NCBI RefSeq assembly: GCF_030389965.1
Contig: NZ_CP128400.1
Span: 1,178,001-1,242,000, forward strand
Source: Candidatus Chlorohelix allophototropha
GTDB lineage: Bacteria > Chloroflexota > Chloroflexia > Chloroheliales > Chloroheliaceae
Length of the DNA: 64,000 bases
Direction: 5' to 3'
Shown here: piece by piece, positions 29,961 to 34,852 of the stretch
Layout: every line of letters starts with the position of its first letter
How positions within the stretch are numbered: position 1 is the first letter of the stretch
Made by a program: the position numbers and the translations under genes
Notes under the pieces: model-generated
What the model saw: the letters and a program-made list of their open reading frames with translations, nothing else
The model's database searches: none
Told to the model about the DNA's origin: nothing

Positions 29961-31040
29961 TCAATCTTTGGCAGGTTCGGTTGTATCCCGAATTACCAAT
30001 GTACGTTTCTTCATTTGCGGTTCGGCATATTTCAGAAAGTTTTGCACCAGTTCGTCTGTTTCAATTGAGCGATACTCTTCCACTCGCCCCTCATCAATCA
30101 ACAAGCGCGCCTGCGGGTCTAGCGGCAACCGTCCCAAAAGCGGGGCATTTGCCGAAGTTGCCAGTTCCTCCCCTTGCGATGTCCCGAATAACTCCAGCTT
30201 TTTATCGCTGCCGGGCATTACAAACCAACTCATATTTTCGGCTACACCCAAAATGGGGGTATGCATTTTATCAGCCATACGTATGGCTTTGCGAACAATA
30301 CTGTTGGCAAGCAATTGTGGTGAGCTTACCAGAATTATGCCTTTTACATCCAGTGATTGCATTACGGTCAGAGGCGCGTCACTAGTACCGGGGGGTAAAT
30401 CCACTAAGAGGTAATCGAGTTCTCCCCAGAGCGTATTATTGTAAAAATTATCTCGGATCATGCGGGTAATCAACGGTCCACGCCAAATAACTGCCTCATC
30501 TTCATCTGCTACAAAGAAAAGGCTGGACATAATTTTGATACCTTGAGAGCTAATCACTGGAATAATTTTGCCGTTATCCTGTAAAGCTGGTCTTGCCAGA
30601 ATACCAAAAGTGCGCGGAATGCTTGGGCCCGTTACATCAGCATCGAGTATCCCCACTTTTTTGCCCATTCGGTTCAGCCCAACCGCCAGCATGCTGGTGA
30701 CATAGGATTTCCCCACGCCCCCCTTACCGCTCACTATTGCGACAACATTTTTTATCAGACCGGTAGTTTCAAATTCGCTGCCGGGTGTGCTAGGCATCAA
30801 GCCGCCTGCTTCGATTTCGGGAAAAGCAGCAGGGTTTTCCAGCACCAAATTTAAATCAGCCAACAATGGTTCGAGCTTTATTTTGTGAGCGCGCGCACCC
30901 TTTTCAACTGTATCCAGCCCGGCAATGTGGCAAGTAGCGCATCCCAACCCGTGTTTGGCAAAAACCCGGATTGTGTCGGGATACTCCGTTACCACTGTTT
31001 TAATAGTCATGTCAGACTGGATTTTTTGAAATTCTGCCAT
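29961..31040 (-). CDS. Mrp/NBP35-type P-loop Fe-S carrier with N-terminal DUF1858 domain
   Basis: 359 residues. Residues ~11-70 are a DUF1858 domain with HGLGCATCHIAGLDT. Residues ~95-355 are the Mrp ATPase: VSGKGGVGKSYVTS (deviant Walker A), ILDADVTGPSIPR, IMSSLFFV, VIWRGPLITRMI, LDYLLVDLPPGTSDAPLT and VAENMSWFV. The CxxC that normally follows NMSxF is missing (VMPGSDKK). Mrp proteins carry Fe-S clusters to apo-proteins. Here the only CxxC is in the DUF1858 part. ATG 31040 is used; ATG 31010 is possible but has no SD. It lies 38 nt after the exonuclease-helicase gene. Confidence 0.88.
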   Translation of the reverse strand: MAEFQKIQSDMTIKTVVTEYPDTIRVFAKHGLGCATCHIAGLDTVEKGARAHKIKLEPLLADLNLVLENPAAFPEIEAGGLMPSTPGSEFETTGLIKNVVAIVSGKGGVGKSYVTSMLAVGLNRMGKKVGILDADVTGPSIPRTFGILARPALQDNGKIIPVISSQGIKIMSSLFFVADEDEAVIWRGPLITRMIRDNFYNNTLWGELDYLLVDLPPGTSDAPLTVMQSLDVKGIILVSSPQLLANSIVRKAIRMADKMHTPILGVAENMSWFVMPGSDKKLELFGTSQGEELATSANAPLLGRLPLDPQARLLIDEGRVEEYRSIETDELVQNFLKYAEPQMKKRTLVIRDTTEPAKD

Positions 31041-31077: not shown

Positions 31078-34032
31078 TTAGGATAATTCCAGCCAATTTC
31101 TCAATTCTGGCACCAAATGCGTCAGTGTATCATGTTTGGTACGCAGCGCCGGAAGCGAGTTTAGGAAAGTCGGACCATATGCGCGACGAGTCAAGCGACT
31201 ATCTAAAACCACTACTACCCCACGTCCCGGCATTGCCTCTAGTAGTCGTTCGTAGGCTTGTTTGAACCTCAGAATGGTACGCGGCAAACTGTATTGCAGA
31301 AATGGGTCATTATATTGCCTGCTTTCGATACGGGCAGCAAATACAGGGTCACTGGGCGGGTCGAAAGGTAACTTTGTAATGGCGAGTACCGAGAAAGATA
31401 ATGCGCTGTTTTCTTCATCGTTAAAAAGCTCTGGGTTATCCCAATGTCCCAATGTGCTGAGCAGAAGGGCATGGGGCGTGTTTTTGAAACGATTAAGCAC
31501 GCTGCGGCGAGTACCGTCTAGTCCCATACCCAGCACCAGAATATTCTGCTGTTCCAGCGGGCGTTGTACAGCTTTATAGGTCATTCGCAACGAGCTATTG
31601 GAAGTGAACAATGCCAGCATGCGCCCCTCACACCCTTTTACCATGTCGATGATATGCTGGTCGATTGATTTCTGGTAACCCGGTTGTGAAGGCTCAGGCA
31701 TATCGTTGGGTAGATAGAGCAGGGTGGTAGCCGCATAATCACGCTCAGGATGTAATCTCAGTTCTTTTGCTTCATGCAAGCCTAATCGATTTCTCAAGAA
31801 CTTGAAATCCCCATCGGTGGTCATGGTTGGGGAAGCCAGCACCACACTTTTTTTATGGTTGAAGAGCATATGCCGCAAACCCGAATCGACCTGTAACGGT
31901 GCGCTAAAAATCCCGACCAGTTGGGTACGCGGATGCAAAGCCATCCAATGAACCTGAGCATTGTCAGAACCGTCAAAGGCGGGAGAAAGACGGTTGAGAA
32001 GATAGTTTGCCTGATTGATGTAATAATTCAAATCTAGCATCATTTCTTCGGTATTGAGCAGCGCCCCTTTGAAATTATGCGCTTCGTCGCGCAAATCGCG
32101 CAAATGATAATATAGCTCTTCCCAATCCTGTTTGAACACTTCCCACGTTCCGGCAATGCTGCCCCATTCTGGGCTGCTGTAGAATTTGCCATCTAAGCGG
32201 ATACGCCCATCCCCTTGCCCCGAATCCTGATTAATTTGGTTAACCAACTCGGTTAGGTCTCGAAGCAAATTGTCGGTAGAGCTACGGCAAATCTCGATAT
32301 GGGAAATTGCAGCGGAAAGTTTGCTATTTATGGGTTCTTTGATTTCTGTACTGGTATCATCACCAAAGTAACGGAAGAAAGTGGATAGGAAACCGCTACT
32401 TCCTCCTTCGGTTTTCCAGGTTACAGGACGGTATATCCAATCTAGGAAATCGAATAGCGTATTGGGGGTGATGGCTGAACCGAATTGGCGACCTGCCTCA
32501 TCTTCAAGGTGATGCGCGTCGTCAATGAGGGTGTAATCAAAATGAGGCAACGTTCCTGCTTGCCCTGCTGCATCGGCAAGCACCAACGCTTGATCGGTTA
32601 CGATGATGTGCGAGGCTTCTGCCCGGTCGCGCGCCTTGAAATAAAAGCACTGGTGGCGCTGATTATACTGACAGTGTGAGGCAAGGCAAAGCCCCTTCTG
32701 GGTGTTTATGCGCGACCACAACCTTTCCTGTTGCATTATGCGCAATTCCGCGCCGTCGCCGTTTGTCGTATTAGGCAACCACAAAAGCACTTTGATTAGC
32801 AACTTTAACTCATCTGAGGTCAGCCCTTCCATATTGCGGAAGTTTTCCCAACGGCGCAAGCATATATAGGAGTTTTGATGTTTGACGGTGTTGGCAATAA
32901 AAGTTGGTTTTTCTTCACTCCGCCGTCGCCGCTTTTCTTTAGTAGCAATGAAATTGTCATCCGGTGTTTCCTGCGTTGCCAGAAGTTTTTGCAATTCCGG
33001 AATCGCTTTGTTGAGCATACGATCTCGTTGGGTTTCGCTATTGGCAGCGATAACCACGCTTTGACCGCTCTGGACGGCTACTTCTATTGCCGGCGCTAAT
33101 AAGCCCATGGCGCGGGTATGGTCATTTCCGGGCATCTCAAGGAGCATGTGCTGGTTTGAATCGAGTATAGCGCGTATCGGCAAACTGGCGCTGGCAACTC
33201 GCTCGTTTAATTCCGAATAGGGAAATTTAAAATCTGGACGTGGCTGGAGCGGTTGCGGCTTGTCCTCTGAAACCAGAAAGATTAAATCATTATCGCTACC
33301 TTGCTTTTCAGAAAGTTGTTGCTTGAGCAAAGCGCCGAGGCTGCCTAACCCGCCACTATTGCGTTCTTGCCGCGCCAGAATTTCTGAAGCTTCCTCAAAA
33401 AGACGGCGTAGGGGCCACTCTTGCAAATTTGAGGCAATCCGATTTACCTCATTTATTACTTTACGGGGGAGTTCTTCCAACTTACCTAGCAACGCTGCAA
33501 AAACATTCATTGCCATGTAAGTATCGGCAAGGGCGCGATGCGCTTCACCGTTAGCCTGAATTTCCAGCGCATTGGCAACTGCTACCAAGCTGTAATTGCC
33601 CATTTGTGGCAGAATCAGGGTAGCCAATTCGTAGGTATCTAAGGGAATATTCGAGACTCGAAATTCTTGGCGTGACAGAAAAGCGAAATCACTCTCGATG
33701 GAATGCCCAACTAATGGGAAATTGCCCAGAAATTGTTGTAATTTGTCTCGGATTTCACTAAAGGTAGGGGCGTGCTCTACATCCGTTTGACGTATGCCCG
33801 TCAAGTGGGAGATTTTGTAAGGGATGGGGTTGCGCGGGCGTACCAGCGTTTGCCAGCGTTCCAAAACCCGTGCTACACTACCTTCCTCCAAACGGAAGCG
33901 TATAGCCGCAACCTCGATTATTTCGCCCTGATCAGCTTCGCCACCCCCGGTACTTTCGATATCCAGCGCCACATACACACGCGCAGGGTGATTATCGCGG
34001 TAGCCCTGTTTTTTGTTTCTGTCCACACTCAT
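31078..34032 (-). CDS. DEDDh exonuclease fused to a degenerate DinG-like helicase
   Basis: 984 residues from ATG 34032, which has a clear SD (GGAG, eight bases); an in-frame ATG 34065 would overlap the next gene. The exonuclease is intact: DIEST (D24, E26), SIESDF (D115), HRALAD (H165, D170). The DinG-like part (~280-970) has lost its motifs. Where Walker A belongs it reads MPGNDHTR, the DEAH box is DDAH, the SAT-like motif is ASPT, and the final GRLIR-like arginine motif is ERLLE. Cys residues of the Fe-S region remain (CLASHC, QCFYF). The protein may be a 3'-5' exonuclease with a DNA-binding but ATPase-dead scaffold. Confidence 0.85.
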   Translation of the reverse strand: MSVDRNKKQGYRDNHPARVYVALDIESTGGGEADQGEIIEVAAIRFRLEEGSVARVLERWQTLVRPRNPIPYKISHLTGIRQTDVEHAPTFSEIRDKLQQFLGNFPLVGHSIESDFAFLSRQEFRVSNIPLDTYELATLILPQMGNYSLVAVANALEIQANGEAHRALADTYMAMNVFAALLGKLEELPRKVINEVNRIASNLQEWPLRRLFEEASEILARQERNSGGLGSLGALLKQQLSEKQGSDNDLIFLVSEDKPQPLQPRPDFKFPYSELNERVASASLPIRAILDSNQHMLLEMPGNDHTRAMGLLAPAIEVAVQSGQSVVIAANSETQRDRMLNKAIPELQKLLATQETPDDNFIATKEKRRRRSEEKPTFIANTVKHQNSYICLRRWENFRNMEGLTSDELKLLIKVLLWLPNTTNGDGAELRIMQQERLWSRINTQKGLCLASHCQYNQRHQCFYFKARDRAEASHIIVTDQALVLADAAGQAGTLPHFDYTLIDDAHHLEDEAGRQFGSAITPNTLFDFLDWIYRPVTWKTEGGSSGFLSTFFRYFGDDTSTEIKEPINSKLSAAISHIEICRSSTDNLLRDLTELVNQINQDSGQGDGRIRLDGKFYSSPEWGSIAGTWEVFKQDWEELYYHLRDLRDEAHNFKGALLNTEEMMLDLNYYINQANYLLNRLSPAFDGSDNAQVHWMALHPRTQLVGIFSAPLQVDSGLRHMLFNHKKSVVLASPTMTTDGDFKFLRNRLGLHEAKELRLHPERDYAATTLLYLPNDMPEPSQPGYQKSIDQHIIDMVKGCEGRMLALFTSNSSLRMTYKAVQRPLEQQNILVLGMGLDGTRRSVLNRFKNTPHALLLSTLGHWDNPELFNDEENSALSFSVLAITKLPFDPPSDPVFAARIESRQYNDPFLQYSLPRTILRFKQAYERLLEAMPGRGVVVVLDSRLTRRAYGPTFLNSLPALRTKHDTLTHLVPELRNWLELS

Positions 34033-34036
34033 TCTT

Positions 34037-34852
34037 TTACTCCGCGTCCGCTTGCTTATTTCCAAAACCGGGGGCTACCACGGAAACTCCGTGTTCCAGA
34101 TACTTCCACATACTATCTAGGTTTTCAATTTTGATTTTGTTCGCTTGATTGTTCGGGTCACCGGGTGGCGCAAAGCGAAGCGCCTGTCCTTGCCGTTCCA
34201 ACCAAAGCGCCGCCATACCTACTGACCACGCGCCTAGAATATCCGCCGTATAGCTGTCTCCAATATGTATCGCTTTGTCAGGGGTGACATCCAAATTATG
34301 CAATGCTATTTCAAAGAATTCTCGGCGAGGTTTGGCGTAACCCACTCGCGCAGAAGCGCCTATATACTTGAAGTATCGGGCAATACCTAAATGTTCCAGC
34401 AATTCCGGCAAGTGCCAACTCCAATTGCTGATAATTCCCATCCGGTAGCCTGTTTCTTCTAGACGTTGTAATGTTTCCATTACATCCGGGTAGAGCATAT
34501 ATGTTTCGGGATTCTCGAAGGCTTCAATAATTTGCCAGAACAGTTCTTCGTGAATATCTGGGTGTATATTGAGTTTATCCATTACCCGCTGCTCTACAGC
34601 CCTTTGCCATAGCCTATTACCTTCAAGGCTACGCTCAAACTCAGCATGTGGGTCTTGTTTGGCGACAATATCCCAGCTATATGAAACCGCTTCTTCTACT
34701 TCGCCGATAGGTAAATCATACCCGGCTCGTTGAAAAACTTGGTGGTAGACTTTTGTGAATGAGGGGGTCACGCCCACCAGTGTAGAACCTATATCAAAGA
34801 AAACCACATCGTAGCGTTGGGAACCAACTTTAAATTCAGGAGTTAAAGACAA
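34037..34852 (-). CDS. HAD-superfamily hydrolase (subfamily IA)
   Basis: 271 residues. Motif I FFDIGSTLV has the nucleophile Asp but Gly at the second acid position, as in some HAD phosphatases. Motif II is GIISNWSW, motif III Lys is in YAKPRREFF, and motif IV is HIGDSYTADILGA. A helical cap domain fills ~20-100. Such enzymes dephosphorylate small metabolites; the substrate is unknown. The frame starts at TTG 34852 with no clear SD. Its stop codon lies 5 nt before the exonuclease-helicase start, so the two are coupled. Confidence 0.85.
   Translation of the reverse strand: MSLTPEFKVGSQRYDVVFFDIGSTLVGVTPSFTKVYHQVFQRAGYDLPIGEVEEAVSYSWDIVAKQDPHAEFERSLEGNRLWQRAVEQRVMDKLNIHPDIHEELFWQIIEAFENPETYMLYPDVMETLQRLEETGYRMGIISNWSWHLPELLEHLGIARYFKYIGASARVGYAKPRREFFEIALHNLDVTPDKAIHIGDSYTADILGAWSVGMAALWLERQGQALRFAPPGDPNNQANKIKIENLDSMWKYLEHGVSVVAPGFGNKQADAE

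Follow-up and report, generated by a model that had tools for sequence, protein, structure and literature searches.

Structures are known for the S. aureus fusion of a DEDDh exonuclease with a DinG-type helicase (8zef, 9ii8), and fusions with this architecture have also been investigated in B. subtilis and Listeria. In the S. aureus protein the exonuclease is followed by motor domain 1, an Fe-S-type domain, the arch and motor domain 2. The enzyme keeps its P-loop, the DEAH box and the sequence QGLGRLIR, unwinds DNA and is without the Fe-S cysteines (PMC12345164). Its residues K801, F804, F823, R858 and Y864 contact single-stranded DNA (ssDNA) and their mutation abolishes unwinding; single-stranded parts of a substrate are digested without ATP, whereas ATP is needed to enter the duplex (PMC12345164). 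In B. subtilis DinG the degradation of ssDNA does not depend on the ATPase (PMC12525004). The variants of these ExoDinGs known so far have lost the Fe-S cysteines but not the motor (PMC11981726, PMC12345164). E. coli DinG (6fwr, 6fws) and the YoaA/XPD family have a comparable Fe-S SF2 core fold with four cysteines, but they are active ATP-driven helicases and have no exonuclease domain. Outside these families, human XPF is without ATP-binding residues, whereas archaeal Hef uses ATP to unwind DNA; cleavage by XPF drops strongly when its helicase domain is removed (PMC6320978).

The window that we analysed is a stretch of 64,000 nucleotides from a genome of 6.09 Mb, which has a photosystem-I-type PsaA/PsaB match and whose family includes Ca. 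Chloroheliaceae MAG L227-5C. Both suggest that the organism is probably Ca. Chlorohelix or closely related to it. All window features given below lie on the minus strand. An open frame runs from an ATG at 34032 down to 31078 and encodes 984 amino acids with no stop or frameshift; an alternative TTG start at 34065 would add 11 amino acids. A plus-strand gene at 31078-34032 was rejected, as the frame read on that strand is interrupted by many stops. Pfam places the DEDDh exonuclease domain at residues 21-178 (33499..33972; RNase_T, E 5e-23) and Helicase_C_2 at residues 795-961 (E 3e-19), and found no match for the N-terminal DinG helicase domain. The NCBIfam matches to a DinG-type helicase (1.5e-132) and a DnaQ/DinG fusion (3e-90) all stay under the trusted cut-offs. 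The family profile matched S. aureus DinG (8zef) over its whole length with an E-value of 1.6e-93 and E. coli DinG (6fwr) with 5.7e-55. Because of the domain matches and the full-length profile match to S. aureus DinG we identify the protein as an ExoDinG in the sense of PMC11981726, that is, a DEDDh exonuclease joined to a DinG/XPD-type SF2 core. The N-terminal DEDDh 3'-5' exonuclease domain has its complete catalytic set in all five members of the order to which the genome belongs (probably Chloroheliales). Two motor domains, an arch and an Fe-S-type domain are found in one fold, in a model of moderate confidence. Common descent is supported by full-length homology and by placement among the ExoDinGs of the class, in a tree without a non-ExoDinG outgroup.

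The AlphaFold2 model, which was built from eight sequences, reached a pLDDT of 72.7 and a pTM of 0.55. Its best match was S. aureus DinG with ssDNA (8zef; Foldseek E 9.7e-39), and VIA-align superposed 841 residues on S. aureus DinG (Z 21.3, rmsd 5.5) and 596 residues on E. coli DinG (Z 24.3, rmsd 7.3). According to this model the overall DinG fold is retained, as an earlier note made from the sequence alone had expected; at its modest confidence it does not reveal whether the ATP pocket is closed.

What sets the protein apart is the state of its ATP site. The P-loop, AGTGTGKS in relatives, aligns with MPGNDHTR (residues 300-307, 33112..33135), and GxGK is found in 108 of 108 relatives and in none of the five order members. 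Motif V (residues 859-868, 31429..31458), which reads GTxSFWEGVD in relatives, is STLGHWDNPE. Motif VI (residues 925-932, 31237..31260) reads QAYERLLE in place of QGFGRLIR: Q925 and R929 are kept and the second arginine is lost. The alignment further shows the DEAH box as DDAH (residues 504-507, 32512..32523) and the SAT motif as ASPT (residues 733-736, 31825..31836). The earlier note had read MPGNDHTR, DDAH, ASPT and ERLLE (928-932), all correctly. It had also called every helicase motif degraded. For the P-loop, motif V and motif VI this is true of all five order members, whereas the changes in motifs II and III are lineage-specific: DEAH is kept in one member (L005) and SAT in three (L006-L008), with SST in another. 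In the window protein itself motif IV (FTSN), Q925, R929 and the DNA contacts of motor domain 2 are likewise kept. Changes in the order members also affect the Q-motif stretch and the motif VI finger, and all five have a G-[NS]-x-x-x-[RK] stretch in the place of the P-loop. L008 retains the K-S of the P-loop and its ExoDinG may still bind some nucleotide. The combination of Walker A, motif V and motif VI (QxxGRxxR) that marks an active SF2 DinG/XPD helicase is absent from all five proteins, and we infer from these motifs that the ATPase activity of the order's ExoDinG has been lost.

The remaining functional sites present a different picture. The DEDDh residues D24, E26, D115, H165 and D170, all reported as kept in the earlier note, are indeed present, H110 is present too, and the catalytic residues are kept in all five order members. 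The core of the Fe-S domain (32647..32862), judged by alignment and conservation counts, retains C391, C449, C454 and C462, and these predicted [4Fe-4S] ligands occur in all five proteins; the earlier note had not mentioned the four cysteines. On motor domain 2, K887 and F890 (31363..31374; S. aureus K801 and F804, for which mutant data are given in PMC12345164), F911 (31300..31302; F823), R946 (31195..31197; R858) and Y952 (31177..31179; Y864) correspond to the ssDNA contacts of the S. aureus groove and are kept in five of five members. The window protein is thus identical to S. aureus DinG at the exonuclease residues and at these five contacts and shares its domain order, but is its reverse with respect to motor and cysteines. 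The DNA side of motor domain 1 is less complete. K384 is kept from the pair that corresponds to S. aureus K336/K338 and its partner is Q or E, and the residues T330, N480, H481, G385 and R386 of the relatives' consensus are lost. The groove is altered in part by these losses, and ssDNA binding may be weaker.

We then compared regions by counting the positions whose conservation among the 108 intact relatives reaches 95% or more and which all five members share. In the exonuclease 22 of 22 such positions are kept, in the Fe-S region 22 of 30 (including all four cysteines) and in motor domain 2 45 of 69; the ATP-site half of motor domain 1 keeps only 7 of 25. The excess divergence z, which measures the distance from the relatives scaled to how far these differ among themselves, was -10.4 for the ATP-site half compared to -1.5 for the exonuclease, -3.6 for the Fe-S region and -3.9 for motor domain 2. 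The loss is therefore selective: the ATP site is gone, and the nuclease site and the groove are retained.

All five genomes of the order, which represent one family and three genera, carry an ExoDinG with a motor of this kind, the other four at 52-57% identity to the window protein. A single-protein query against the genome contigs gave no match; the alignment-based contig search recovered the four order members and three intact relatives. This search for homologues with the same substitutions, which the earlier note had suggested, thus returned four further proteins in which the P-loop, motif V and motif VI are lost. Homologues with an intact Walker A, which together with sequencing errors the note had regarded as evidence against its reading, do abound, but since the same loss is seen in four independent relatives it is not a sequencing error. 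Within Chloroflexota, to which our survey refers, both the P-loop and motif VI were intact in 108 of 108 relatives (105 from the same class, three from outside). Among a further 60 ExoDinGs from other Chloroflexota classes the P-loop was intact in all 60 and motif VI in 59 of the 59 whose contig reaches it, so that the P-loop is absent in 0 of 168 other Chloroflexota ExoDinGs. Three outside-class proteins had been scored as lacking Walker A by a regular-expression count; this was rejected because the alignment shows an intact APTGxGKS. The intact ExoDinGs of Chloroflexia and Chloroflexota (e.g. L021 and G089) have the same architecture, are ~30-40% identical over the full length and in most cases carry the Fe-S cysteines, but they differ from the order's proteins in having the P-loop (168/168) and motif VI (every one covered). 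The full four-cysteine set is missing in 14 of the 60 outside-class ExoDinGs, the reverse of the window's case. Outside the class, at least one Fe-S cysteine is seemingly lost with the P-loop intact in the Chloroflexota ExoDinGs L137, L149-L151, L156, L162, L163, L171, L174, L182, L185, L190, L192 and L193.

A tree of 76 proteins groups the five members in one clade with a support of 100. The stem of this clade, with 1.19 changes per site, is the longest inner branch of the tree, whereas the branches within the clade are of ordinary length. One clade on a long stem with ordinary inner branches implies one origin with a burst of change followed by constraint, and on this tree the loss of the motor motifs arose once, in the ancestor of the order.

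To quantify the constraint we computed pairwise NG86 dN/dS values, restricted to pairs within the genus g2 (dS 0.8-1.2) since dS is saturated between genera. The value for the whole gene was about 0.09 (0.08-0.10), compared to a median of 0.117 for 67 intact pairs. The dN/dS check proposed in the earlier note thus upheld its statement that the changes are not random decay: the gene is conserved across the order under purifying selection. For the regional values we used the dS of the whole gene. The g2 means were 0.038 for the exonuclease, 0.052 for the Fe-S region, 0.055 for motor domain 2, 0.141 for the arch and 0.19 for the ATP-site half, compared to medians of 0.113, 0.087, 0.075, 0.143 and 0.084, respectively, for the 67 intact pairs. 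The ratio of the ATP-site half to the exonuclease was 4.9 and is the only value out of range (intact median 1.0, maximum 4.8). Hence the dead ATP-site half is relaxed yet far below 1, and the remainder is constrained like the intact enzymes.

The ExoDinG gene is directly preceded, with a gap of 4 bases, by a gene for a HAD-family hydrolase (34037..34852). This upstream linkage occurs in five of five order members, and no such hydrolase was seen next to the ExoDinG in intact relatives from the class, over flanks of ~1.5 kb. Directly downstream, after 37 bases, lies a gene for a DUF1858-Mrp/NUBPL-type Fe-S carrier NTPase (29961..31040), which adjoins a gene whose product keeps Fe-S cysteines. 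In L046 an Mrp/NUBPL-type NTPase is found 1.8 kb downstream, and in L047-L049 it does not adjoin the ExoDinG.

A second helicase of the DinG type, stand-alone and intact, with P-loop, DEGH, SAT, QxxGRLMR and four cysteines, is encoded in all five genomes. In the genome of the window this gene (L002, G000:C1:404870-406849) is located on another contig and is unlinked to the ExoDinG. Among 158 genomes of the class we detected a full-length stand-alone relative (47-60% identity) only in these five and in the sister genome G089 (family f8, C30:4228-6189); the remaining matches were mostly ExoDinGs. As the ExoDinG of G089 is itself intact, this distribution suggests that the second helicase was gained before the motor was lost and may have freed the fusion from unwinding. 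Five genomes with one origin amount to a single event and not to a tested correlation, and the suggested order rests on this one event.

The reading that we favour, with a probability of roughly 0.7, is that of a 3'-5' exonuclease carried by a passive scaffold that is braced by its Fe-S domain and binds ssDNA, whose motor was lost once and for which a separate helicase unwinds. ATP binding and hydrolysis would have disappeared in the ancestor of the order and the core would have been kept as a passive platform. With its [4Fe-4S] domain and the groove of motor domain 2, the core would hold single-stranded nucleic acid so that the 3' end reaches the exonuclease, which would degrade the strand in the 3' to 5' direction without ATP; unwinding, where needed, would fall to the separate intact DinG-type helicase that the cell also encodes. 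Exonuclease activity, cluster occupancy, ssDNA binding and the division of labour with the second helicase are in this scheme all predicted from conserved residues and gene content. The earlier proposal of a nuclease on an ATP-independent DNA clamp agrees with the scheme in so far as the pattern fits a DNA-binding scaffold; the clamp itself would be a reading of the sequence. With the motor removed and the iron-sulphur site conserved, the cluster could serve DNA binding, stability or redox gating independently of translocation, an extension that we offer tentatively and at somewhat less than even odds.

Alternatively, the dead core could mainly be a protein-protein platform that docks the exonuclease onto the separate DinG helicase or another repair complex, with DNA binding secondary. 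RecC, which acts as a protein platform in RecBCD, would be a parallel. The co-occurrence of the second helicase in all five genomes and in G089 would fit such a role, as would the long stem with its many lineage-specific changes and the subsequent constraint, and the helicase-like domain of XPF is known to bind SLX4 (PMC6320978). However, precisely the ssDNA contacts of motor domain 2 and the Fe-S cysteines are kept, which would be superfluous in a surface used for docking alone, and the second helicase gene is not linked to the ExoDinG. We consider this reading unlikely. Rather improbable as well is a main substrate of RNA or RNA-DNA hybrids (R-loops, unprocessed rRNA), for which a helicase would be dispensable. 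In Listeria, DinG acts on immature rRNA as a 3'-5' exoribonuclease (PMC12774634), and the B. subtilis enzyme degrades the RNA of hybrids (PMC12525004), but the sequence gives no sign of a preference for RNA or DNA, and no linked RNA-processing genes were seen in the neighbourhood. An RNA substrate is compatible with a passive platform but alters its biological role.

It is very improbable that an unusual pocket still binds a nucleotide which regulates, rather than fuels, the exonuclease. ATP does lower the DNA affinity and the nuclease activity of S. aureus DinG (PMC12345164), and both the shared G-[NS]-x-x-x-[RK] stretch and the K-S in L008 would fit such a site; yet the P-loop glycines are gone, the Q-motif stretch is altered, as is the motif VI finger, and the ATP-site half is the least constrained segment of the motor. 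A pseudogene, an assembly error or chance drift, to which the loss of several motifs invariant in relatives and the ~5 times faster evolution of the ATP-site half compared to the exonuclease could point, is refuted for practical purposes by five open frames from independent assemblies, the low dN/dS of ~0.09, the shared losses and the conserved upstream gene.

The principle behind the passive, ssDNA-binding scaffold is already known. The earlier note had described the form as one not known from the literature, which does not hold in view of XPF beside the active Hef (PMC6320978): XPF is likewise an active nuclease on an SF2 fold without ATP-binding residues and has a helicase-active homologue. 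Unlike the window protein, XPF has an unrelated ERCC4 endonuclease placed after the helicase-like domain and no Fe-S domain, and with no ERCC4 or HhH match in the window protein (Pfam) the principle alone is shared. An ATP-dead ExoDinG that keeps the Fe-S cysteines was not found in the literature searched, which covered few subscription journals. The case bears on the role that the helicase core has for the nuclease of ExoDinGs and on whether the Fe-S cluster of the DinG/XPD family matters for unwinding alone. In Bacilli the cluster was lost and the motor kept, whereas in this order the motor was lost and the cluster sites were kept; together these two natural experiments open a direct way to test which part of the core is required by the exonuclease. 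The order thereby provides a counterpart to XPF in bacteria, one that can be compared with close relatives whose helicase is intact.

Two further observations concern related genes elsewhere. A DinG-like helicase core was encountered inside very long frames of ~1800-2000 amino acids at G052:C11:195249-197210, G090:C1:19379-21454 and G089:C355:1288-3513. In the genome of the window, the locus L003 (G000:C2:893812-894297) appears to encode a protein of ~740 amino acids with a DnaQ-type exonuclease and a UvrC-like (GIY-YIG) region, and this putative fusion also occurs in the four remaining genomes from the order.
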